Shown piece after piece: positions 1-43,621 of a stretch of DNA of 43,621 nt. Numbering within the stretch: position 1 is the first letter of the stretch; each line of letters opens with the position of its first letter. Made by a program: the position numbers and the translations under genes. The DNA comes from a virus: positions 1 through 43,621 of the IMG/VR virus record IMGVR_UViG_3300049432_000131; one strand, 5' to 3'. A model generated the notes under the pieces. The model worked only from the letters and a program-made list of their open reading frames with translations. It was not told the origin of the DNA and did no database searches.

Positions 1-54
1 TGGCCAATTGTTCCGCCGCTGCCACAAAAGACCAAGAAACGCAAACGACTATGA
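1..54 (+). CDS. C-terminal end of small upstream protein (partial; same gene as 43341-43523)
   Basis: These 18 codons (WPIVPPLP...KRKRL, stop) are the 3' end of the 60-residue gene seen complete at 43341-43523. The stop TGA overlaps the terminase small subunit ATG. This copy has CAA (Gln) where the other has CCA (Pro), the only mismatch in the 152-bp terminal overlap. Confidence 0.75.
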   Translation, partial: WPIVPPLPQKTKKRKRL

Positions 55-152
55 CCAAGACTAAACAACTTTCAACGATCCTCAACGAGGATCCCTACGA
101 AAAGCTCGACGAGGATCACCGGATGGCGGTCGATATGCGCCTGGAGAACTAC
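1..152. repeat. Terminal overlap, left copy (circular closure)
   Basis: Bases 1-152 equal 43470-43621 except at base 26 (A here, C at 43495). The overlap runs through coding sequence without any boundary feature. It therefore looks like an assembly overlap of a circular or circularly permuted genome rather than a functional terminal repeat. Unit length is about 43,469 bp. Confidence 0.85.
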
Positions 153-26097: not shown

Positions 26098-26727
26098 ATG
26101 CTCCGACCCAAAGACGTTGCCGATCAGCTCCATATCTCGGCTCCCACGCTCCGGCTCTGGAGCAATAACTTCTCCGATGTTCTCTCCCCCGCCGCCCAGA
26201 AGTCGACGACAGAAAGCGGCACCGCCGCCCAGCGCCGCTACACCGACGAGGACCTGGCCGTCTTCCGCAGGGCCAAGCAGTACCTCGACGGCGGCAAGAC
26301 CTACGAGGAGACCTTACACCTCCTCAAGGAATCCCCGCCAGAGCCAGCAGAACCGCCGCAGAGCGACGAAACCGTCCCAGAGGTGTCGTCGTCCCTCCCA
26401 GCGGTGAACTGGGACGAGCACCCGGTCTTCGTGGCTTTCCGCGAGGCCCTCGCCGCCAAGGACGAGACGATCCGGGCGAAGGATCAGGCTCTCGTCGCGA
26501 CCGAGGCCACGGTACGCTCTAAGGAGGAGACGATCACGGCGCTTCGCTCGACGATCGATCTGCAGGAGCGCCAGCTCGAGGATTTGCGGTCGCGGCCGGT
26601 TGTCACCGCTCCACCGGCTGCGGCACCGCTGCCAGCTTCCTCGTCGACTCGTTTTCGCTGGGGATTCCTGAACCGGCTCCTGGTCCTACCCGGTGACAAT
26701 CCGGCACCAGTTGACGGGAAGGGGTAG
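26098..26727 (+). CDS. MerR-like HTH protein with coiled coil
   Basis: 209 residues. N-terminal MerR-type winged helix (LRPKDVADQLHISAPTLRLWSNNFSDVLSP...RRYTDEDLAVFRRAKQYLDGGKTYEETLHLL, 1-80), a Pro/Glu linker, a helical coiled coil (about 105-165, AAKDETIRAKDQAL...) and a Pro/Ala-rich C-terminus. It may be a regulator or a partition/replication partner, as it lies directly upstream of the replication initiator. GGGAGGG lies 5 nt before the ATG. Confidence 0.7.
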   Translation: MLRPKDVADQLHISAPTLRLWSNNFSDVLSPAAQKSTTESGTAAQRRYTDEDLAVFRRAKQYLDGGKTYEETLHLLKESPPEPAEPPQSDETVPEVSSSLPAVNWDEHPVFVAFREALAAKDETIRAKDQALVATEATVRSKEETITALRSTIDLQERQLEDLRSRPVVTAPPAAAPLPASSSTRFRWGFLNRLLVLPGDNPAPVDGKG

Positions 26728-26858: not shown

Positions 26859-27665
26859 GTGCCTGACCAATACGACGCACTCAAGGCACTCCTCTCCGAC
26901 CGCCCCATCGCCTTCCACCCGATGCTGGCCCGTCTCTTCGGCGGGATCAACGAGGCGCTCCTGTTCCAGCAGCTCGCCTACTGGTCCGACAAGGGCTCCG
27001 ATCCCGAGTGGATCTACAAGACCCAGAAGGACTTGGAGGAGGAGACGACGCTCACGCGTACCCAGCAGGAGACCGCCCGCGCCAAGCTCCGTAAGCTGGG
27101 CGTGATCGAGGAGCAGAAGCGAGGCCTCCCCGCCAAGCTTTACTTCCGCGTCCAATGGGAGAACGTCTTCGCCCTCCTCAACAGCCAAGTCCGCGGAAAA
27201 CCCACATCCAAGGATGCAGGAAACCTGCAACCAAGGATGCGGGAACTCAGCAAACTAGATCGCGGGGAACCCGCAGACCAGCCTGCATCTATCCAGCAGC
27301 CATTAACAAAGATGACTACAGAGAGTACAGACAAAGAGGACCCGTCGAATGATTCGAATGAAAACCCGTTAGTTATGTCGAGAGAGGATGCCGAACGGAT
27401 CGCGTGGGTGATCAAAGACGTGGCCCGCGAGTTCGCCGACCAGGCGCCAGCGAAGAGTTCCGCGACCCGCGCCTGTCGGCTCTACAGCCAATCCAGACTC
27501 GACCTGGGCGAGTTCCTCGACGTGATTCAACAGGCCAGGCTGAGGACGAAGCGCTACACCGGCAGCATCAAGGCGGAACGCCTGGAGAACGGCGCCAAGC
27601 CGAAGATGGGGTACTTCTTCGGGGTGCTGGAGGATCTCGTGGCCGGGACAAATCGTGTTCGCTGA
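26859..27665 (+). CDS. Replication initiator-like winged-helix protein
   Basis: 268 residues from GTG 26859. N-terminal part (FHPMLARLFGGINEALLFQQLAYWSDKG...WIYKTQKDLEEETTLTRTQQETARAKLRKLGVIEEQKRGLPAKLYFRV) is the winged-helix pattern shared by plasmid and phage replication initiators and DnaD-like proteins. The middle is a disordered linker; residues about 170-265 form a second helical domain. It is followed by a repeat-rich block that may be the origin. No polymerase or helicase is encoded, so it would recruit host enzymes. Confidence 0.7.
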   Translation: MPDQYDALKALLSDRPIAFHPMLARLFGGINEALLFQQLAYWSDKGSDPEWIYKTQKDLEEETTLTRTQQETARAKLRKLGVIEEQKRGLPAKLYFRVQWENVFALLNSQVRGKPTSKDAGNLQPRMRELSKLDRGEPADQPASIQQPLTKMTTESTDKEDPSNDSNENPLVMSREDAERIAWVIKDVAREFADQAPAKSSATRACRLYSQSRLDLGEFLDVIQQARLRTKRYTGSIKAERLENGAKPKMGYFFGVLEDLVAGTNRVR

Positions 27666-28832: not shown

Positions 28833-29062
28833 GGTTTTGCCTCCTCTGACTTTACCTTAGCGGTTCTGATGGCTGCCCTCAGTTCGGCGAGGCTGCGCTC
28901 GACCTTTGCCACGGCCTTCTCGATGCTTTCGGGTTCGAGCTTGCTGTGGGCTCCCCACTCAAGCAGCTGCTTGAAGTGGAAGCGATATCCGCGCTCGAAC
29001 TGGCCCGCCTTGTCCAGCATCCGTTGTTTCCAGTACTCGACTTTGCCCTCATCTCTATCCAT
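28829..29062 (-). CDS. Small charged helical protein of the SSB operon
   Basis: 77 residues from ATG 29062; the upstream in-frame GTG lies inside the ribosome site GGGGAGGTG. Sequence: MDRDEGKVEYWKQRMLDKAGQFERGYRFHFKQLLEWGAHSK..., largely helical. It overlaps the SSB gene end by 8 nt. Function unknown. Confidence 0.55.
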   Translation of the reverse strand: MDRDEGKVEYWKQRMLDKAGQFERGYRFHFKQLLEWGAHSKLEPESIEKAVAKVERSLAELRAAIRTAKVKSEEAKP

Positions 29063-29879
29063 GGTGCTCACCTCCCCTCAGCTTAGGCGTTCTGACCGCT
29101 ACCGCGTTGACCTCCTCGTAGGTCTTTCCCCGGTATTCCCGGTTCTGCAGGTAGCCCACCACCTGGTATTGCTCTCCTCTTTTCACCAGCTCGCTCACCC
29201 GCTCGGCCATCGCCCGAAAGGCAACCACCGTGAACCAGTTGGTGATCTCCTCATCGGTTTCGCCCTCGGGTGTCTCGTGAACCGCTAAGGGAAACTTGGC
29301 AATGAGCGTTCCTCCCTTAGTGGTTCGGACGCGGGGATTGTTCCCTGCCCGGCCCACGAGCTCAACGCGTTCGCCCTTCTTTGGCTGGGGTTCCGTGTTC
29401 GTAGCGGTTTTGGTGTTCGTTCGCGCTGGGGCGGGTTCGTCTGCCGCGATGTATTCCTCAAGGGTTTCGACCGGGTGGGCGGAGACGTCGGGGAGGGATT
29501 CTTGTTTCGGCTTGGGCTGGACAAAGAGCGTGACCTCGCCCTGCTCGCCGAGGATGAGGGTCTGGAAGCTGGAGGGGCTTTCGGAGGAGAACATGACGTT
29601 TGTGCCCTGCACCTGGGGCGGGTGGTCGACGCTCATGGTGAGCCCGATGCCCTCGCCCGCGTAGCGCACGACGCCGGCCCTGGGGTAGACGTCAAGCTCG
29701 CCTTGGCTGTACTCGTGGTCGCCGCCGAGGGGAAAGCGCGTACCGAGGCCATACAGGCTGTCTAGTCGTGGACTGGGAATCGAGGCAAGGGGAACGGCGA
29801 TCTCGTCGGGATGCCAGGGATCGGGTGAAGACATATCCCTGGAGTCTTCGGCGAAGTGAAGAATTCGGTTTTCTCGCAT
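29055..29879 (-). CDS. ssb: Single-stranded DNA-binding protein with long N-terminal extension
   Basis: 274 residues. Residues about 165-270 form an SSB OB fold: ERVELVGRAGNNPRVRTTKGGTLIAKFPLAVHETPEGETDEEITNWFTVVAFRAMAERVSELVKRGEQYQVVGYLQNREYRGKTYEEVNAVAV. The N-terminal 160 residues are an extra beta-rich domain and an acidic linker not found in ordinary SSB. The acidic tip normal for SSB is missing (ends GGEHHG). The first codons (MRENRI) and promoter resemble those of the ArdC gene at 35107. Confidence 0.75.
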   Translation of the reverse strand: MRENRILHFAEDSRDMSSPDPWHPDEIAVPLASIPSPRLDSLYGLGTRFPLGGDHEYSQGELDVYPRAGVVRYAGEGIGLTMSVDHPPQVQGTNVMFSSESPSSFQTLILGEQGEVTLFVQPKPKQESLPDVSAHPVETLEEYIAADEPAPARTNTKTATNTEPQPKKGERVELVGRAGNNPRVRTTKGGTLIAKFPLAVHETPEGETDEEITNWFTVVAFRAMAERVSELVKRGEQYQVVGYLQNREYRGKTYEEVNAVAVRTPKLRGGEHHG

Positions 29880-29938: not shown

Positions 29939-30526
29939 ATGAGCGACCTAGCTAACCTCGTGCTCGTCGCACCCCTGTCCGATGAGGTGCGCCAAGAGCT
30001 GCTCGATCGCATTGGGCGTGGTCTAGACACCCCGCGCCAAGCGGAGCTCCTCCGCATCTGTTGGAAGGCGATTGGCCAGGAGTTCCAGATCAAGTACTCC
30101 TATGAGTTGCAGGCCTCCATGTTGGAGATGGCTCAGGGAAACAAAGCCGTCGACTTCAATCCGGATGAGGTTGTCAACCGCCTTCTGCGTGCTTACGCGA
30201 TCAAGCTCCAGACTGATGTCGATTCGGTCCGAGAAGAGATTCAGGACGAGCTGGGAACAGTTGTAGTTCCGACGCCCGGTAGGGAATATCGGCGCTGGAA
30301 GTGTGATTGTGGGTACGTGTTACAGGAGGGATCTCTTCTCACTGCTTGCCCGGCCTGTCAACGCGCGCTCAGCCTAAATGAACGAATGGAAACTATATTT
30401 ACAGAAAAAGCGAGAAAAATTCAACTTCCGACGAGGAAAAATATGGCAAACACGCAAGCACCTTCGCCTGTTAAAAAGTCGCCAGAGGTGAAGCGTCCGG
30501 AAGTGTTGAGGCCCGAGGATATCTGA
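29939..30526 (+). CDS. Zinc-ribbon protein upstream of transfer ATPase
   Basis: 195 residues. N-terminal helices (1-110), then a zinc ribbon W-K-C-D-C-G...T-A-C-P-A-C (about 120-142) and a basic, proline-rich tail. No named family. The stop overlaps the ATPase ATG (TGATG), so it probably works with it, perhaps as a DNA-binding or adaptor subunit. AAGGAGAGAG lies close to the ATG. Confidence 0.55.
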   Translation: MSDLANLVLVAPLSDEVRQELLDRIGRGLDTPRQAELLRICWKAIGQEFQIKYSYELQASMLEMAQGNKAVDFNPDEVVNRLLRAYAIKLQTDVDSVREEIQDELGTVVVPTPGREYRRWKCDCGYVLQEGSLLTACPACQRALSLNERMETIFTEKARKIQLPTRKNMANTQAPSPVKKSPEVKRPEVLRPEDI

Positions 30527-32640
30527 TGGGCTTGGTACTAGGCTGGGATATGTCGGATGGGTCTCAGGTAACCCTGTCCCCAGGTGCCCGCACGTTGGGC
30601 ACCTACGTTCCCGGCAGCACCGGCACGGGCAAAAGCACGCTGCTGCTGAACATGATCCTGCAGGACATGGAAGCCGGGCTGGGTGGGGCGTTCGTCGACC
30701 CGGACCATGACCTGGTCGCCGATCTCCTTCCGAGGATCCCCGCTCATCGCCGGTCTGACGTCGTGCTGCTGGACCTGGTCGATCAAGACTACGCTTTCGG
30801 GCTCAACCCTTTTCAGTGCCACGACCGGAACGACGATGCCTCCGTCGCCTACGTCCTTGATGGTGTGATGCAGGCCTTCTCGCGGCTCTGGGGAAGCTCC
30901 ATGTGGGAGACGCCCCTCCTTGCCGACTACCTGCGCAACACCGCGACGGTGATGATCCTGACCGGCCGGACGATGGTTGACCTGGCGCGGATGATCCGCC
31001 CCAAGGAGTGGAAGTTCCGCTACCAGCTGCTCTCCTCCCTGCCTACCCGCTACGGCTATCTTCGCGAGTTTTGGGAAGACCACGAGGCGATGACCAAGCC
31101 AGAAAAGGAAAAGCGCTTACAGTCGTTAGCGATTCGCGTTCGCGCCTTCACCGACAACCCGATCACCCGGAGCATCTTTTCCCAGCCGCGTTCCACCGTG
31201 GATTGGCGGGAGGTGATGGACCAGCGGGGAATCGTCCTCTTAGCGCTTGACCCCCGAACGGAATGGCTCTCCACCTTCATCGGGTCGCTGATGCTGGGCC
31301 AGCTCTACGACGCCGCCACCTCACGCGTCGATACCGACCGGCCAGACCGGACACCCTTTGCCCTGTACGTCGACGAGTACCAGAAGGTCGCCACCGCGGC
31401 GACGGCCAAGCTCCTCAAGGGCGGGCGCAAGTTCGGGATGATGCCAACGATCTCCCACCAGGTCCGCGCGGATCTTGACGACACCACCAAGGCGGCAACG
31501 CTCCAGGCGGGCAACCTGATCGTCTTTCGGGTGATCGGCGAGGATGCCACGGTCCTTTCCAAGCAGTTCAAGGTGGATCCCAAACCCCGCGAGAAGATTC
31601 TCAAGATGATCACCGAGTCTGTCTATGACGAGTGGACGGAGGAGGTCTGGGACCCGCCCTCCGCGAAGGCCGAGTGGGAGTCGTGGCAAGCCCGCGGTAG
31701 TGACGCGCATAACACGATCCATATGCTCGGGAGATCGCTAGAGTCTGAGGTTCAGAGGAAATATGTCACGCAGAACAAAGAACATTCGGTCGCCTTTGAC
31801 CCGTGGACACTAGCTCTGGCAGTGACCGAGGGGAAGGTATCCGACGAGGAACTGACGACGGCATTTCGAGTAAACGGGTATCCGCGCCGGGACGGAGGGT
31901 GGTACAAACACGAGGAAAGTACAGCGTTAGTTCGGGAGGACCGCGAGTGGCGGGTCTTCCGAGCCCGGATGAGGTGGATCAGCGCGGTCGAGAGCAGTCT
32001 TTCGTGTCCGACGTTCTTTGGTGGCGAGCCGATGCCGGTTGAGGATCACCGTCGTCTGTTGGCGGAACTGGCCCCCATTCTCGATCCCGTCCGATTCACA
32101 GTCGAGTTTCACGAGAAACGAAGCTGGCCGGGTGCTAAGACCTCCTCCCCCATGCCGAGAAAGACGATGTTCCCCGAGGCGGTGGCCTGGTATCGCCGGA
32201 CGATGACGGAGTACGTCCGGCGGGTCAGGGAGACCACGGAAGAACTCAATCGGATTCGTACTCACCACTTCCGCAAGGTTCCCCGGAAGCGCTACCTCTA
32301 CGAGCGCCCGGTCAAAGACACCGTCCGTTCGAAGGTCACCTACAGCGGGGTGGCCGAGGTCAACCAATACGAAGAGGTAGACGGCCCTCCCCGCGCCATC
32401 GTGGACGTCCAGAACGAGGTTGCCAACCTGATGGCCACGCTTGACGTGGCAACGGCCAGAGTACGCCTCACAGTCGGCGACACGTCGTCGGAGCACACGA
32501 TGCGCACGCTTCCTCCCCCGCCTCCGGTTGCACCGTGGAAGCCGGCGCCCAACCGTCAGCCCGCGCCGCCTCCGGTGACTGACGTCCAAGAAGACGCGGA
32601 CGTCTATGCTGACGAGCCGCCCATCTCCCTCCGGCGTTGA
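30526..32640 (+). CDS. VirD4/TraG/HerA-like DNA-translocating ATPase 1
   Basis: 704 residues. Walker A GSTGTGKST (30-38), FVDPDHDLVADLL (57-67), Walker B-type ALYVDEYQK (279-287), and downstream R-K-F-G-M-M-P-T-I-S-H-Q typical of coupling proteins and TraM-recognition ATPases. No membrane segment is seen, so it is a soluble member. A C-terminal extension (about 400-704) with a proline-rich end is unique to this protein. Such ATPases pump DNA to a conjugation channel or act in segregation. Paired with a second ATPase at 33635. Confidence 0.85.
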   Translation: MGLVLGWDMSDGSQVTLSPGARTLGTYVPGSTGTGKSTLLLNMILQDMEAGLGGAFVDPDHDLVADLLPRIPAHRRSDVVLLDLVDQDYAFGLNPFQCHDRNDDASVAYVLDGVMQAFSRLWGSSMWETPLLADYLRNTATVMILTGRTMVDLARMIRPKEWKFRYQLLSSLPTRYGYLREFWEDHEAMTKPEKEKRLQSLAIRVRAFTDNPITRSIFSQPRSTVDWREVMDQRGIVLLALDPRTEWLSTFIGSLMLGQLYDAATSRVDTDRPDRTPFALYVDEYQKVATAATAKLLKGGRKFGMMPTISHQVRADLDDTTKAATLQAGNLIVFRVIGEDATVLSKQFKVDPKPREKILKMITESVYDEWTEEVWDPPSAKAEWESWQARGSDAHNTIHMLGRSLESEVQRKYVTQNKEHSVAFDPWTLALAVTEGKVSDEELTTAFRVNGYPRRDGGWYKHEESTALVREDREWRVFRARMRWISAVESSLSCPTFFGGEPMPVEDHRRLLAELAPILDPVRFTVEFHEKRSWPGAKTSSPMPRKTMFPEAVAWYRRTMTEYVRRVRETTEELNRIRTHHFRKVPRKRYLYERPVKDTVRSKVTYSGVAEVNQYEEVDGPPRAIVDVQNEVANLMATLDVATARVRLTVGDTSSEHTMRTLPPPPPVAPWKPAPNRQPAPPPVTDVQEDADVYADEPPISLRR

Positions 32641-32666
32641 CAACGTTATGTCCGGTTTGCTAGGGT
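32637..32666 (+). promoter_or_regulatory. Early promoter for replication-relaxation gene
   Basis: TTGACA (32637-32642), overlapping the ATPase stop, 18 nt, TAGGGT (32661-32666). ATG 32679 follows 12 nt later. Confidence 0.6.
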
Positions 32667-32678
32667 AGAAGAAACCCT

Positions 32679-33632
32679 ATGGACATCTCCACGACCGATC
32701 CCGCCCGCGAAGCGCGTCTGGCGCGTGAGCGCGAACTCGCCAAGCAAAAGCGCGATCGTCAGCGCCAAAACCCGCTTGCCTACTCCACCGGACTCGCTAT
32801 CCTCAGCGCTGTCGGGCGCTATCACTACCTATCTATTGAACAGGTGATGCGGCTCCACGAGTGGAAGTCCGAACCCAACGTCAGCACGTGGCTCAAGCAC
32901 CTGACCGCCGGGGGTTATCTCTCCAACGAGAACTTCGTCCCTGTTGGCTCGTTTCGTCCGCCCCTCTACTGGTCGCTTCGTCAAAGGGGACGACTGGCGC
33001 TTGAGGATCAAGGGTTTCCCGTGCGCCAACGCATCCACCACGACCCCAAGCGCAAGTCGTGGTGGCTTGAGCACGTCCGCGACCTCAACGACTTCCTCAT
33101 CCAGTTTGAGCTGCTGATGCGGGTTGAGCAGGACACCCTGATCACCAGCTTCTTCCACGACCTGGAGCTTCAGCGACGGGCGGTCAAACTCACCTTCCCC
33201 GATGGCAGCGAGCACCGCTTTGTCCCCGATGCCTTTATTGCCCTGAGGCGAAATGGCATGGACGACGAGCTCTGTTTCTGCCTGGAGATGGACCGGGGAA
33301 CCGAGCGCGATGCCGGGAGACCGTGGAAGGAGAAGATCCGCGCCTACGTCGCTTTTGCCAAGGGTCCATACCAAGCACTCTTCGGGCGAGATCGTTTGAC
33401 GGTCCTCATCGCCGTCCGGTCGCATCACCAACCCGACGAGCGCCGCCTGGCCGATCTCCTCCGCTGGACGGAGGAGGAGCTGCTTGCCCTTGGTCTCAAG
33501 AGCTGGGGCAAGATGTTCTTCTTCACCACTCTCCACGCCGACGAGGTGGATCCGAAAACGTTCTTCGGCGCCGACGCCTGGATTCGCCCCTTCGAGAAGA
33601 CGCGGGCACCGCTTCTGGAGGGCGTCGCCTAA
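32679..33632 (+). CDS. Replication-relaxation family protein (Replic_Relax)
   Basis: 317 residues. Winged-helix start (TGLAILSAVGRYHYLSIEQVMRLHEWKSEPNVSTWLKHLTAGGYLS), then RHxW-type linker and a nuclease-like core RFVPDAFIAL...CFCLEMDRGTERD...WKEKIRAYVAF, the family signature with PD...E.D.GTE....K...Y. Members are found on plasmids and mobile elements and are thought to act in replication or as relaxase-like nucleases; the biochemistry is not settled. Flanked by two transfer-type ATPases. Confidence 0.8.
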   Translation: MDISTTDPAREARLARERELAKQKRDRQRQNPLAYSTGLAILSAVGRYHYLSIEQVMRLHEWKSEPNVSTWLKHLTAGGYLSNENFVPVGSFRPPLYWSLRQRGRLALEDQGFPVRQRIHHDPKRKSWWLEHVRDLNDFLIQFELLMRVEQDTLITSFFHDLELQRRAVKLTFPDGSEHRFVPDAFIALRRNGMDDELCFCLEMDRGTERDAGRPWKEKIRAYVAFAKGPYQALFGRDRLTVLIAVRSHHQPDERRLADLLRWTEEELLALGLKSWGKMFFFTTLHADEVDPKTFFGADAWIRPFEKTRAPLLEGVA

Positions 33633-33634
33633 AT

Positions 33635-35056
33635 GTGGCTCCCAAGATCGTGCTGGGCAAATACGGGCACTGGTGGCACCGCAAGGCGCTAACCCTCAGC
33701 GGCCCGTCGCTGAGAGCCCACAAGCACTGCATCGGCGTCTCCGGCCAAGGCAAGTCGTTTCTTCTGGCCAGCTACCTCGTCCAGCTCCGTGAGCAGGGCG
33801 TTGCCTTCTCCCTAATCGATCCCCACGGCGATCTCGCCAACCAGGTCTTAGCGCTTCTCAACGATCGCGGTCTCCGCGATGAGCGGTTACTTTATGTCCA
33901 CTTGGGTGATCCCAGGCGGGCGCTCCCCTTCAACTACCTCAAGCAGCCCTACCCTGACCACGACATCGCGGAGGACGTGGTGGAGGTCTGTAAGCGCGTC
34001 TGGCCGTCGCTTGCGGAGGGGGCACCGCTCTTTGAGACGCTGTGCTGGAACGGCACGATGATCCTCATCCAGAACAATCTTCCCCTCCCCGAGCTGTCCC
34101 GCGTCCTGGAGCTAAAGGACTACCGTGATCGCCTGTTAGCGAACGTGAGCGACTCACGCGTTATCGAGTTCTTCCACAACAACTTTGACCGTCTCTCGGA
34201 GAAGGACCGCTTCCAGGAGATCCAGTCAACGATCCGCCGCGTCAACATTCTGGTGCGCTCTCCTGCCCTCCGCTACACCCTCGGGCAGACGGAGAACAGG
34301 CTCAACTTCCGGCAGATCATCGACCAGGGCGTGAGCGTCATCTACAACCTCTCGGGGCTGAAGGAGGACCCGCAGGCGTTCTTAGGTGCCCTGCTGATGC
34401 GCGGCTACGAGTCGGCCGCCATGTCGCGGGCCGACATCCCGGAGGACGATCGGCGGCACCACGAGCTGGTGACCGACGAGTTCCACACCTTCAGCAGCAA
34501 GAGCGGCAAGTCGGTGGAGACGATGCTGTCCCAGACCCGCAAGATGGGGCTGTTCGCGGTCTTAGCGCATCAGAACTGGTCGCAGACCAACGACTCGATC
34601 AGGGGCGCTATCCAAAACTGCGGGGTCAAGATCGCCTTCGGGTTGGACTACGAGGATGCGGCCCTCTCCAGCCGCATCCTCGGCCGGGTGGATACCAAGA
34701 CCGTCAGCCGCCGCGACCCCGAGGGGTCGGAGAGCGAAGGGATGGCCGAGCAGTGGCAGGAGCTCGTGCAGGAGATCCAGGATCTCCCCATCGGGGAGGC
34801 CTTGGTCCGTAAGCGCATTCCCAAGCTCAAGAAGCCGTGGCGGTGGTTCATCCACCGCCCACCGAGCAAGCTCTACCGCATCGAGACGATCCACGTTCCC
34901 CGGCCGAAGACCTCACCGGAGCGTCTGGAGGAGATCAAGCAGCACTATGCCCACCTTCTGACCAGGTCGGTGGAAGACGTCAAAGCGATAATCGAAGCGC
35001 CAGTCTGGAAGCTAACAATCGATAATGAGCCGCCGCCAAGCAGTATCGACCGCTAA
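33635..35056 (+). CDS. VirD4/TraG/HerA-like DNA-translocating ATPase 2
   Basis: 473 residues from GTG 33635, 2 nt after the previous stop. Walker A GVSGQGKS (34-41), LIDPHGDLANQVL (60-72), Walker B-type LVTDEFHTF (278-286), then SQTRKMGLFAVLAHQNWSQ, typical for coupling-type ATPases. No membrane segment. It is distinct from ATPase 1 in length and sequence but has the same architecture. Together with Replic_Relax it forms a plasmid-type transfer or segregation unit. Confidence 0.85.
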   Translation: MAPKIVLGKYGHWWHRKALTLSGPSLRAHKHCIGVSGQGKSFLLASYLVQLREQGVAFSLIDPHGDLANQVLALLNDRGLRDERLLYVHLGDPRRALPFNYLKQPYPDHDIAEDVVEVCKRVWPSLAEGAPLFETLCWNGTMILIQNNLPLPELSRVLELKDYRDRLLANVSDSRVIEFFHNNFDRLSEKDRFQEIQSTIRRVNILVRSPALRYTLGQTENRLNFRQIIDQGVSVIYNLSGLKEDPQAFLGALLMRGYESAAMSRADIPEDDRRHHELVTDEFHTFSSKSGKSVETMLSQTRKMGLFAVLAHQNWSQTNDSIRGAIQNCGVKIAFGLDYEDAALSSRILGRVDTKTVSRRDPEGSESEGMAEQWQELVQEIQDLPIGEALVRKRIPKLKKPWRWFIHRPPSKLYRIETIHVPRPKTSPERLEEIKQHYAHLLTRSVEDVKAIIEAPVWKLTIDNEPPPSSIDR

Positions 35057-35063
35057 CTATTAG

Positions 35064-35093
35064 TTGACATAACTACACCCGAATCGCTAAGAT
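35064..35093 (+). promoter_or_regulatory. Early promoter of ArdC-like gene
   Basis: TTGACA (35064-35069), 18 nt, TAAGAT (35088-35093). ATG 35107 follows 13 nt later. It shares TTGACATAA-TACACCCG with the SSB promoter. Confidence 0.7.
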
Positions 35094-35106
35094 ACCCGTA
35101 ATCTAT

Positions 35107-36156
35107 ATGCGGGAAAATCGAATAGGGGAGTACAGGGACCAGGCGCTAAACCAACCGCTCGTTAGCGAAGCGTCCATTCGTCAGCCGCTAACACCCCCCG
35201 AAACCTCCTTCTACGACTGGCCGGTCGACCGGCAGGAGCGTGAAGAGCTCGCCCTCACCCGCATGCAGGAGGGCGTCGACAAGCTCCTCGAAGACCCCAA
35301 GGGCTACTTCCGCCTGATGGCCCGGTTCCCCCGCTACTCGCTCGCCAACACCTTCATGATCTTTGCCCAGTTCCCCGAGGCCTCCCTCGTCATGGGCTAC
35401 GGCGACAAGACCGGCAAGACCGGGTGGAAGTCGGTCGGCCGACACGTCCGGGAAGGCGAGACGGGTATCAGGATCTGGGCACCCAACAAATACAAGGTCA
35501 TCGATGAAGAGACGGGCGACCCCAAGGAGATCGTCCGCAACTTCCGCCTGGTGAGCGTCTTTGACGTCAGCCAGACGGAGGGAGAGCCGCTTCCTGATCC
35601 TCCGTCGATCACCGAGGACGTCACGACCGACGACGTCTCCACGGCGATCAACCTCAAGCTCTCGAGGTTTTGCATCGACAACGGTCTGATCATGTCCTCG
35701 GAGCCGATGGAAGGGCACAGGCGAGGGTCCTGGAGCCCGCAGCAACGCAAGATTGCTTTGCGTGCGTCTCCCGACGTCTCGCCGTTCTCGGTGTCCCGCA
35801 CCAAGACTTTAGTCCACGAGACCGCCCACTTCCTGGCCAACCACGACGGGACAGTAGGGAGAGAAGATGCTGAACAGGTTGCAGAGATTACGGCCTACGT
35901 GGTGATGAACAGATTTGGACACGACACCTCAGATGCGAGCTTTGGCTACGTGGCCGGCTGGGGAGGGACGGGGGAGAAGATCCACACCAAGCTCGGCGAG
36001 GTGAAGCGTCTCTCCGGGGAGATCATCGCCGCCATCGAGACCATCGGCGATCCGTACGCCGACGACTTTGGATCCTTCGACCAGGCCGATCCCTGGGCAG
36101 CGGTGCGAGACCAGATGGAGATCGAGAGACTGGCAGACAGCTACGTCAATCTTTAG
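35107..36156 (+). CDS. ArdC-type antirestriction protein
   Basis: 349 residues. N-terminal ArdC ssDNA-binding domain (about 40-145: LLEDPKGYFRLMARFPRYSLANTFMIFAQFPEAS...GWKSVGRHVREGETGIRIWAP) and a C-terminal zinc metalloprotease-like domain with HETAH (237-241) and a downstream acidic VAEITAYVV. ArdC proteins protect incoming plasmid DNA from type I restriction. Position right after the transfer module and an own early promoter fit expression on entry. Confidence 0.85.
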   Translation: MRENRIGEYRDQALNQPLVSEASIRQPLTPPETSFYDWPVDRQEREELALTRMQEGVDKLLEDPKGYFRLMARFPRYSLANTFMIFAQFPEASLVMGYGDKTGKTGWKSVGRHVREGETGIRIWAPNKYKVIDEETGDPKEIVRNFRLVSVFDVSQTEGEPLPDPPSITEDVTTDDVSTAINLKLSRFCIDNGLIMSSEPMEGHRRGSWSPQQRKIALRASPDVSPFSVSRTKTLVHETAHFLANHDGTVGREDAEQVAEITAYVVMNRFGHDTSDASFGYVAGWGGTGEKIHTKLGEVKRLSGEIIAAIETIGDPYADDFGSFDQADPWAAVRDQMEIERLADSYVNL

Positions 36157-36281: not shown

Positions 36282-36291
36282 GTGTTTGCAT

Positions 36292-36410
36292 GGAGCGGTG
36301 GCGGAACTGAGAACGTACGCACGCTGAAATCTGCGGTCACGTCAGGGGAATAAGGATTAGTTCAGCGTCCTCCCTGAACCGTGTGCGGGGGTCAAACCCC
36401 GCCCGCTCCA
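36292..36410 (+). ncRNA. tRNA-Leu-like RNA element 2 (aberrant)
   Basis: Acceptor GGAGCGG (36292-36298) pairs with CCGCTCC (36403-36409), A follows, CCA absent. Leu-type D-arm start TGGCGGAACTG...ACGC; T-arm-like CGGGG-GTCAAA-CCCCG has a 6-base loop. The centre is enlarged: ACGCTGAA pairs with TTCAGCGT, and a competing CACGTCAGGG/CCCTGA..CGTG stem exists. 119 nt is too long for a normal tRNA. Lies 17 nt before the next ATG. Confidence 0.5.
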
Positions 36411-36427
36411 TAGAGACACAAACACCT

Positions 36428-36670
36428 ATGTCTAAGACCTTTCACCAACGACTAGACGTCATCCTTAGATCCACCATCGATCTCGATGGAGTTCACCCCG
36501 GGCAGTACGGCATCCTCACCAAGCGCATCGAAGAAGCAGTCCTGGACCTCGTGGCCAAGGCAAAGCCCACCCACCCCGAAACACCAACTGATGCCTGGTC
36601 TACCGGGTTCATAACAGCCATCGACGACTATCACGACAATCTCATCAAAGAGATCAAAGGTAGCGGATAG
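36428..36670 (+). CDS. Small protein, unknown
   Basis: 80 residues (MSKTFHQRLDVILRSTIDLDGVHPGQYGILTKRIEEAVLDLVAKAK...). Helical; start in CCTATG context with no ribosome site. It follows the tRNA-like element, whose 3' processing would leave a short leader. Function unknown. Confidence 0.55.
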   Translation: MSKTFHQRLDVILRSTIDLDGVHPGQYGILTKRIEEAVLDLVAKAKPTHPETPTDAWSTGFITAIDDYHDNLIKEIKGSG

Positions 36671-37282: not shown

Positions 37283-37310
37283 CTATGAGAACACGACTTG
37301 AAGATTGTAT

Positions 37311-37398
37311 GGAGCGGTAGCACTGACCGAGGTGAACACAAGCGGTTTCTAAATACTGGGTAGGCTCGGCACTCCCAAGAGAGAAACCGTTCGCTCCA
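37311..37398 (+). ncRNA. tRNA-like RNA element 3 (acceptor-like closing stem)
   Basis: GGAGCGG (37311-37317) pairs with TCGCTCC (37391-37397). Inside, AGCGGTTTCT (37341-37350) pairs with AGAAACCGTT (37382-37391), TGGG with CCCA, and CCGAG (37327-37331) with CTCGG (37365-37369). The last pairing interleaves with the ten-bp stem, so a pseudoknot is possible. There is no T-arm. The AGCGGTTTCT stem and the acceptor stem share base 37391. Lies 25 nt before the lysozyme-like gene start. Confidence 0.45.
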
Positions 37399-37423
37399 TA
37401 GAGTCATCAAGACTCGCAAATAT

Positions 37424-37969
37424 ATGAAAAGAAGCAGATTACATCGCCGAGAGATCGGCTCCAACCAATACCAGACGCAGGAGCGCTACTTCGGGCTCAA
37501 GTCCAAGACGCTTCGAGATGTCACCGTCTGCCTGGCCTTCATCCTCGGCATCAGCCTGGTCGGCACCGAAGCCACCGCCAACGAGCCCGTCGAGTTGATG
37601 ACGCCCCTCGCTACCCGCGCCTTTGCCATGGAGCTGACACGACCCCAGCTTCCCGTCGAGACCAAGACCGACGAGCAGCAAGAGATCGCTAACTACATCT
37701 GTGAAGTCTTTGGCAAGGACTGCGACAAGGCCTTCGCCGTCCTCTCCTGCGAGAACCCGAGCCTCAACCCCAAGGCAGTCAACACCGCGGGGAACGAACC
37801 GGCCGGAAGTCGAGACATCGGTGTGTTTCAGATCAACGAGTATTGGCAGCGCACCCAGGGCAAGTTCCTCTTCAACTGGAAAATCAACGTCGAGATCGCT
37901 CACCAGCTCTTCGAGGAGAACGGTAAGAGCTTCAAGCTCTGGACCTGTGGGAGGAAGCTGGGAGTTTGA
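37424..37969 (+). CDS. Membrane-anchored lysozyme-like (transglycosylase-fold) protein
   Basis: 181 residues. A basic N-terminus, one membrane or signal-anchor segment (about 32-52, DVTVCLAFILGISLVGTEATA), and a C-terminal lysozyme-like domain: AFAVLSCENPSLNPKAVN..., with Glu as probable catalytic residue, GVFQINEYW and AHQLFEENGKSFKLWTCG. It may cut peptidoglycan during DNA entry or serve the transfer system. It is outside the lysis cassette and in the early region. Confidence 0.7.
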   Translation: MKRSRLHRREIGSNQYQTQERYFGLKSKTLRDVTVCLAFILGISLVGTEATANEPVELMTPLATRAFAMELTRPQLPVETKTDEQQEIANYICEVFGKDCDKAFAVLSCENPSLNPKAVNTAGNEPAGSRDIGVFQINEYWQRTQGKFLFNWKINVEIAHQLFEENGKSFKLWTCGRKLGV

Positions 37970-37987: not shown

Positions 37988-38674
37988 ATGAGTGACTTTT
38001 TACCAGATGGATACGAGCGGCAAGAGTCCGTAGGCAACTACATGAGCCTCGAAGAGGGGGCAAACCCGATCCGCGTTCTTTCCTCGGCCGTCGTTGGCTG
38101 GGAATGGTGGACAGCCGATCAGGAGGGCAATCGCACCCCAAACCGCGTCCGCAACCAAGCAGACGTGCCGTGGGAGTTCGTGCGGACGGCCGACAAGAAG
38201 GACAAGGCCAAGGAGTTCTGGGCGTTCGTGGTCTACAACCAGAATGCTAAGACGGTTCAGATCCTGGAGATCAAACAGCAGACGATCATGCGCCTCTTGG
38301 AGGGGCTCGTCAAAAGCCCGAAGTGGGGCAACCCTCGGGACTACGACATCGTCATCTTCAAGTCCAAGACGGGGCCAAACCCCTACGACGTCGAGTATTC
38401 GGTGATGCCGGAACCCAAGGAGCCAATCGACCCGGCAATCGTCCAGACCTACGAGAACATGGGGATTCGTCTCGAAGCTTTGTACGAAGGGGCAGATCCG
38501 TTCGAGGCAGCAGAGACCAAGCAGGAGTCCAAGGACGCGACCGTCTCAGTCGAGCGCCTGAACATGAAACCAGAGAAGCCAGCGGAGCCAGAGCAGGCAG
38601 AGGGTAATCCTGCGCCGGCGTCAGCTAGTGATCCAACCAACGCTCCGGTAGCGCCGGGGGACGTGCCTTTCTAA
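37988..38674 (+). CDS. ssDNA-binding protein with SSB-type tail (probable)
   Basis: 228 residues. Body with OB-like strands (PIRVLSSAVVGWEWW..., EFWAFVVYNQNAKTVQILEIKQQTIMRLLEGLVKSPKWGNPRDYDIVIFKSKTG) of the type seen in phage ssDNA-binding proteins, a disordered Pro/Glu/Ala linker and a final DVPF, which matches the SSB tip that recruits replication proteins. AAAGGAGGTG lies 9 nt before the ATG. It would complement the other SSB, which lacks this tip. Confidence 0.65.
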   Translation: MSDFLPDGYERQESVGNYMSLEEGANPIRVLSSAVVGWEWWTADQEGNRTPNRVRNQADVPWEFVRTADKKDKAKEFWAFVVYNQNAKTVQILEIKQQTIMRLLEGLVKSPKWGNPRDYDIVIFKSKTGPNPYDVEYSVMPEPKEPIDPAIVQTYENMGIRLEALYEGADPFEAAETKQESKDATVSVERLNMKPEKPAEPEQAEGNPAPASASDPTNAPVAPGDVPF

Positions 38675-43344: not shown

Positions 43345-43523
43345 AGAAATGCAACTGCAAACCAGGACGAGAGGGAACGCTTACGACCTACCACGACTGC
43401 GGGCCGCGAGAGGATTTACTGTCTCTGTTGGGGATCGGCGAGAAGGTGCCAGGGTCGGCAGTGGTTGTCTGGCCAATTGTTCCGCCGCTGCCACCAAAGA
43501 CCAAGAAACGCAAACGACTATGA
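43341..43523 (+). CDS. Small Cys-rich/Pro-rich protein upstream of terminase
   Basis: 60 residues (MKKCNCKPGREGTLTTYHDCGPREDLLSLLGIGEKVPG..., ending PPKTKKRKRL). C.C, H.C may hold a metal. Its stop overlaps the terminase small subunit ATG, so terminase is translated from this transcript. Confidence 0.55.
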   Translation: MKKCNCKPGREGTLTTYHDCGPREDLLSLLGIGEKVPGSAVVVWPIVPPLPPKTKKRKRL

Positions 43524-43621
43524 CCAAGACTAAACAACTTTCAACGATCCTCAACGAGGATCCCTACGAAAAGCTCGACGAGGATCACCGGATGGCGGTC
43601 GATATGCGCCTGGAGAACTAC
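43470..43621. repeat. Terminal overlap, right copy (circular closure)
   Basis: Matches 1-152 with one difference (C at 43495). Confidence 0.85.
43520..43621 (+). CDS. terS: Terminase small subunit, N-terminal part (partial, second copy)
   Basis: First 34 codons of the gene complete at 51-530; cut by the window end because of the circular overlap. Confidence 0.75.
   Translation, partial: MTKTKQLSTILNEDPYEKLDEDHRMAVDMRLENY

Follow-up and report, generated by a model that had tools for sequence, protein, structure and literature searches.

A two-ATPase and Replic_Relax gene module shared by tailed phages, a circular Chloroflexota contig and integrated Streptomyces elements

The IMG/VR virus record IMGVR_UViG_3300049432_000131, analysed here over its whole length of 43,621 bases (hereafter the window), carries a block of four consecutive genes on one strand of a tailed-phage genome: ATPase A (704 amino acids; 30526..32640, +), a Replic_Relax protein (317 amino acids; 32679..33632, +), ATPase B (473 amino acids; 33635..35056, +, with a GTG start) and an ArdC-type antirestriction protein (35107..36156, +; PF08401, 1.9e-5). 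An earlier note on this DNA had described two VirD4/TraG/HerA-like ATPases around a Replic_Relax gene, followed by ArdC, and all four genes lie where it placed them, on one strand. The block is preceded by an O-like/DnaD-like replication initiator (26859..27665, +; phrog_9773, 4.3e-38), by a single-stranded DNA-binding protein (SSB; 29055..29879, −; PF00436, 8.5e-16) that diverges from it, and by a 195-amino-acid protein with a possible zinc ribbon (29939..30526, +; 0.0087, below the family cut-off) whose gene overlaps the start of A; beyond ArdC comes a lysozyme-like gene. The note was right about the initiator and about the lack of an integrase, which appeared neither among the 66 distinct open reading frames (ORFs) of the window (Pfam) nor among the 25 of 40 PHROG families listed for 47 of its ORFs. 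The SSB next to the block bears out its mention of SSBs; the second (37988..38674, +) has a weak PHROG match only (0.00078) and is 46% identical to its counterpart in the sister phage described below.

The virion genes of the window, for portal, capsid protease, a major capsid protein of the Phage_capsid family, and tail tube, tape measure and Dit proteins, make it a siphovirus. Its record ends in a 152-base repeat with one mismatch (1..152 and 43470..43621, by terminal repeat comparison), and the map is therefore circular. The virion genes agree with the note's proposal of a phage-plasmid, but no partition gene (ParA/ParM/TubZ families) was found among the 66 ORFs and a circular map alone is insufficient, so that the label is unproven.

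The Replic_Relax protein matches PF13814 at 1.2e-14 (55 bits, cut-off 25.3). According to the available excerpt of PMC5357655, CONJscan assigns this family to the MobC relaxase class, and in two streptococcal mobilisable elements it lies beside VirD4. An AlphaFold2 model (predicted local distance difference test, pLDDT, 85.5) has a winged helix followed by a possible PD-(D/E)XK-like domain. Residues 31-114 resemble MarR-type winged helices (Z ~12), and the best Protein Data Bank (PDB) neighbours of the second half include FokI (3.9e-4), PaqCI (2.1e-3), BstEII and MunI, at template modelling (TM) scores of ~0.2; a PDB sequence search returned chance-level winged helices only. The acidic PD-(D/E)XK-type motif is intact, and D184, E203, D205, E209 and K219 are invariant in 12 of 12 aligned relatives, drawn from this phage group, the plasmid introduced below, actinobacteria, SPO1 and phage G. 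The excerpt of PMC12857230 relates MOBC relaxases to PD-(D/E)XK enzymes and gives TraX an N-terminal winged helix, the same layout as that predicted here from a winged helix and a FokI/PaqCI-like part. Judged by its conserved residues and model, the protein is very probably an active enzyme of the MOBC kind, for which nicking is predicted.

ATPase A belongs to PHROG 5156 (6.5e-20) and has a Walker A motif, GSTGTGKS, at residue 30; a Pfam scan gave no match. It is a more divergent relative, 25% identical to B (2.3e-25), and a soluble motor of the VirD4/HerA superfamily. The long ORF of B opens at 33323, and the most likely start of the gene is a GTG at 33635, directly past the Replic_Relax stop. 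B matches PF12696 (TraG-D_C, 1.2e-6) and PF10412 (TrwB), both above their cut-offs, and its structure model (pLDDT 80.7) aligns with DndH-C (Z 28.1), TrwB (Z 26.7 over 375 residues), VirB4 (26.0) and HerA (22.7), from which a TrwB-like coupling-protein fold is predicted. A and B are paralogous yet anciently distinct DNA motors of the hexameric type.

The triad of A, Replic_Relax and B is also present, in this order, in two further circular phage genomes, so its order is not a matter of chance. The first, a sister phage (G001, IMGVR_UViG_3300042995_000011; 44,725 bases with a 127-base exact end repeat), shares 75% identity with the window in the large terminase and 80% in the major capsid protein, and has the module in the same order and strand, with ArdC further on; identity to the window is 31% for A, 30% for Replic_Relax and 37-38% for B. 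The second (G005, IMGVR_UViG_3300006917_000008; 45,162 bases, 123-base exact end repeat) has portal, capsid and internal virion protein families of a different phage type, which we read as podovirus-like, and its virion genes show no similarity to those of the window (threshold E 1e-4 and >60 bits). It has in common with the window two genes of the cell-wall-lysis type, the initiator, A, Replic_Relax, B and ArdC, and its B shares 80% identity with the B of the sister phage. Unrelated virions accompany B proteins that are 80% identical, and capsids that are 80% identical accompany B proteins that are 37-38% identical; the module has therefore been exchanged. Four relatives of the capsid protein were found, three of them fragments of 4-15 kb that were excluded from all counts and in which the block was not found.

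The block gave no blastn match to phages, and in 50,697 phage records searched by tblastn the two-ATPase block was not found, A and B matching phage G only and Replic_Relax nothing. Against plasmids, Replic_Relax gave no tblastn match, and A and B gave, among the matches listed, motor-domain matches only, at 22-30% identity over at most 75% of the query. Peptide-pattern searches of IMG/VR with B or Replic_Relax alone, and of genome contigs with B alone, returned no relatives; a two-sequence profile of B did recover relatives in both.

The module also lies on a contig assigned to the Chloroflexota, SCTZ01000221.1 (metagenome-assembled genome, MAG, FW602_bin.16; 54,020 bases, 100-base exact end repeat). 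Read across the contig junction, its order is initiator, SSB (minus strand), A, Replic_Relax, B and ArdC, as in the window. The SSB agrees with the window in place and strand, and ArdC sits on the opposite strand; the two initiators are 32% identical over 82 amino acids, and A is 43% identical to that of the window, above any phage A. For 48 of the 51 ORFs of at least 110 amino acids, the families listed (25 of 75 from Pfam, 25 of 46 from PHROGs) include no virion family, and we call the contig a circular plasmid, a label of our own. It additionally encodes type I restriction, Mrr, bacterial HORMA, NACHT, kinase, IS21-type and tyrosine-recombinase proteins. A further contig of the same genome (C242) has ArdC, Replic_Relax and B adjoining the contig end, with no A in the 12 kb read, and a second Chloroflexota genome (G224, contig C50) has SSB, Replic_Relax and B. 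B-type matches at E <= 1e-70 were confined to these two among 400 Chloroflexota genomes, in which the window's capsid protein had no match, in a search that lacked a positive control.

In Streptomyces cirratus (contig 230,174-247,288; L021) and S. nymphaeiformis (contig 464,089-487,701; L114-L115), the triad is flanked on one side by a tRNA-Pro gene and on the other by a 44-base repeat of the tRNA 3' end. The attachment repeats are 17,071 and 23,569 bases apart, respectively, and a tyrosine integrase adjoins the tRNA. In 33 ORFs of the two elements 25 Pfam families were detected; integrase, ParA, SSB, HerA/TrwB and Replic_Relax are among them, whereas virion, terminase and VirB4 families are absent. 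The ORFs of these tRNA-Pro elements also include an Eco57I-type methylase and an XhoI-type gene. The triad occurs further in S. tailanensis, Streptomyces sp. ISL-43, Pseudonocardia eucalypti and one actinobacterial MAG. The plasmid, with initiator, SSB and ArdC, and the tRNA-integrated triads together uphold the earlier note's description of a plasmid-type module in a tailed phage.

Among GTDB contigs, the B profile returned 505 relatives, of which 80 were kept. A, Replic_Relax and B were found in order by blastp at six of these 80 loci, and one more (L020) is the Chloroflexota plasmid, whose A lies at the opposite end of the contig. Most of the remaining 73 consist of a lone motor gene, and a few have a weak Replic_Relax match close by. 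At other sites, in two actinobacterial genomes (G011, G013), PF13814 lies within a few kb of one HerA/TrwB-like ATPase, differing from the module in having no A-B pair. A survey of 199 Streptomyces genomes found a B orthologue in one, the query genome itself. The module is rare and patchy, as expected of something mobile.

A tree of 35 motor domains separates A (support 100/98) from B (100/99), and each clade holds phages, the plasmid and the islands. The A of the window pairs with that of the Chloroflexota plasmid (99/95), and gp27.4 of SPO1 joins gp156 of phage G outside both clades on long branches (SPO1 end branch 2.7). The module is mobile and common to phages with unrelated virions, a plasmid and integrated islands. 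Two histories were rejected: a recent duplication giving rise to A and B, by their 24.5% identity and separate clades, and descent alone in the three phages, by the identities of major capsid protein and B (80% and 38% between the two siphoviruses, 80% for B between siphovirus and podovirus).

Several known systems resemble the module in part. CloDF13, as described in the excerpts of PMC11389934 and PMC12857230, is mobilisable and has a MOBC relaxase and a coupling protein of its own. As far as these excerpts and that of PMC5357655 go, CloDF13 and the streptococcal PF13814-VirD4 elements are like the module in having a MOBC-type relaxase, their own coupling-type ATPase and no pore; unlike them, the module has two soluble ATPases instead of one and an attached SSB and ArdC, and is borne by a tailed phage. 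Lytic Bacillus phages, too, pair such genes: in the SPO1 type the VirD4-like ATPase gp27.4 adjoins the PF13814 protein gp27.3 (L105, 5770-9307), and in phage G (L104; gp155, gp156, gp146) a VirD4-like ATPase lies ~5 kb from a PF13814 protein; 20 phage records match gp146, including phage G's own two. Both share with the window a VirD4-like ATPase near a PF13814 protein, but they are very distant, SPO1 has one ATPase, and no SSB-ArdC frame is annotated. The earlier note had said that its idea would fall if the block were common in lytic siphoviruses and had a known packaging or replication role there; lytic phages do hold the distant one-ATPase pair of SPO1, but not, in the records searched, the two-ATPase block. 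The Geobacillus and Bacillus phages TP-84, GBK2, D6E and vB_BpsM-61 encode a similar ATPase, and in the ~8 kb around it no PF13814 product is annotated. For the Bacillus siphoviruses Novomoskovsk and Bolokhovo, the excerpt of PMC9658697 reports Replic_Relax and FtsK/SpoIIIE genes and proposes that a plasmid state was lost; these, too, are siphoviruses with Replic_Relax, but on that description the ATPase family named differs, which sets them apart. No account of the triad was found in the literature searched, most subscription papers lying outside its reach.

We tentatively favor, at somewhat less than even confidence, the reading that the module is a CloDF13-like nick-and-translocate kit for mobilisation, with associated replication of the circular genome; nickase, motors, strand binding and antirestriction fit a CloDF13-type mobilisable element on paper. 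With its winged helix, Replic_Relax would bind the circular genome at a site in cis, and it would nick one strand; A and B, loaded beside this nick, would power the separation and movement of the strands; and SSB would coat the strand, strand-displacement replication being part of the same act. The circular form might then be mobilised by way of another element's pore, as with CloDF13 and its MobB-MobC pair, and the phages would gain a second route of spreading besides the virion. SSB and ArdC are a functional pair protecting DNA that arrives in a new cell.

A number of results weigh against this reading. No type IV pore gene (VirB4 or other pore family) is among the 66 window ORFs, no origin of transfer (oriT) could be named, and the pairs that a repeat scan picked up near the block were all weak. 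Canonical type IV coupling proteins are membrane anchored; no membrane segment (a 19-residue window above 1.6 on the Kyte-Doolittle scale) occurs in A or B of the window, the sister phage or the podovirus-like phage, and, with no anchor and no type IV pore found in cis, neither ATPase is a canonical coupling protein. The PD-(D/E)XK half of Replic_Relax is weakly matched (TM ~0.2), and a second aligner covered the winged helix only. In the second Chloroflexota genome, no A was found in the stretch that separates SSB from Replic_Relax, which goes against A being obligatory. A single clade for the three phage A genes is rejected only moderately (p-AU, approximately unbiased test, 0.016), and one for the three phage B genes is not rejected (p-AU 0.077). 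Finally, the distant pair of ATPase and Replic_Relax occurs in lytic SPO1, where mobilisation is implausible, and favors a replication role, at least there.

Replication alone is the strongest competitor, one that we regard as possible but rather doubtful: Replic_Relax would start rolling-circle replication (late and concatemer-making), with A and B as helicases or translocases and no cell-to-cell transfer. The position of the block behind the replication initiator, seen in the plasmid and in three phages, the distant homologues gp27.4-gp27.3 of SPO1 and gp156/gp146 of phage G in lytic phages, the PHROGs label for such proteins ("replication initiation by nicking") and the lack of pore and membrane anchor all speak for it. 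Yet the Streptomyces elements integrate and hold the triad with no match to the phage-type initiator, ArdC and SSB suit entry into a new cell, and the phages already own an O-like initiator. The tools used here do not separate this from mobilisation.

We consider it unlikely that rings of A, B or both act with the PD-(D/E)XK protein as a HerA-nuclease machine that resects ends or destroys competing DNA. B does resemble DndH-C (Z 28.1) as well as HerA-NurA and HerA defence complexes (Z 18-22), and the active-site residues of Replic_Relax are intact; but the partner, which carries a DNA-binding winged helix, is a member of the Replic_Relax family and not of NurA, DUF4297 or SIR2, and the triad was encountered in this analysis only on phages, on a circular plasmid and at genomic loci that are integrated or unplaced, accompanied by SSB and often by ArdC. 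Streptomyces plasmids undergo conjugation-like transfer with a single translocase, and it is conceivable, if improbable, that A, Replic_Relax and B make up a complete pore-independent DNA export machine common to phages, plasmids and islands, by which some tailed phages would travel by virion and by a conjugation-like route. Segregation or resolution of an extrachromosomal prophage by FtsK-like ATPases, with Replic_Relax as an accessory DNA-binding protein, takes up the segregation role raised in the earlier note and has a parallel in a proposal for Bacillus phages with Replic_Relax and FtsK (excerpt of PMC9658697) and in the ParA that accompanies the module in Streptomyces, but is very unlikely given the lack of a partition gene in the window (Pfam, 66 ORFs; PHROG families listed) and a nuclease motif kept in 12 of 12 relatives.

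Elsewhere in the window, a MerR-type regulator (26098..26727, +; Pfam) lies upstream of the initiator and has a MerR-type counterpart in the podovirus-like phage. Downstream of ArdC are two structured leaders with a common closing helix (ATGGAGCGG.../...CGCTCCATAGAG): the first (36285-36418) has a tRNA-like fold with a long variable arm (z -2.35) and is shortly followed by an ORF start at 36430, and the second (37300-37405) is very stable (z -4.61), with an ORF start at 37424 shortly after. Neither was matched by ARAGORN (default settings) or Rfam, and the exact motifs are not present in the other two phages.

A plasmid, integrative elements and viruses with two kinds of morphology exchange one DNA-processing module, in hosts that include at least Chloroflexota and actinobacteria, and this sharing suggests that viruses and plasmids trade kit for DNA transfer or replication. 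With the Streptomyces elements, which are 17-24 kb long and have culturable hosts, the question can be tested without recourse to the uncultured phage. Should the module replicate DNA, a function would be suggested for the PF13814-ATPase pairs of lytic phages such as SPO1; should it mobilise DNA, the usual divide between transduction and conjugation would be broken for a virus.

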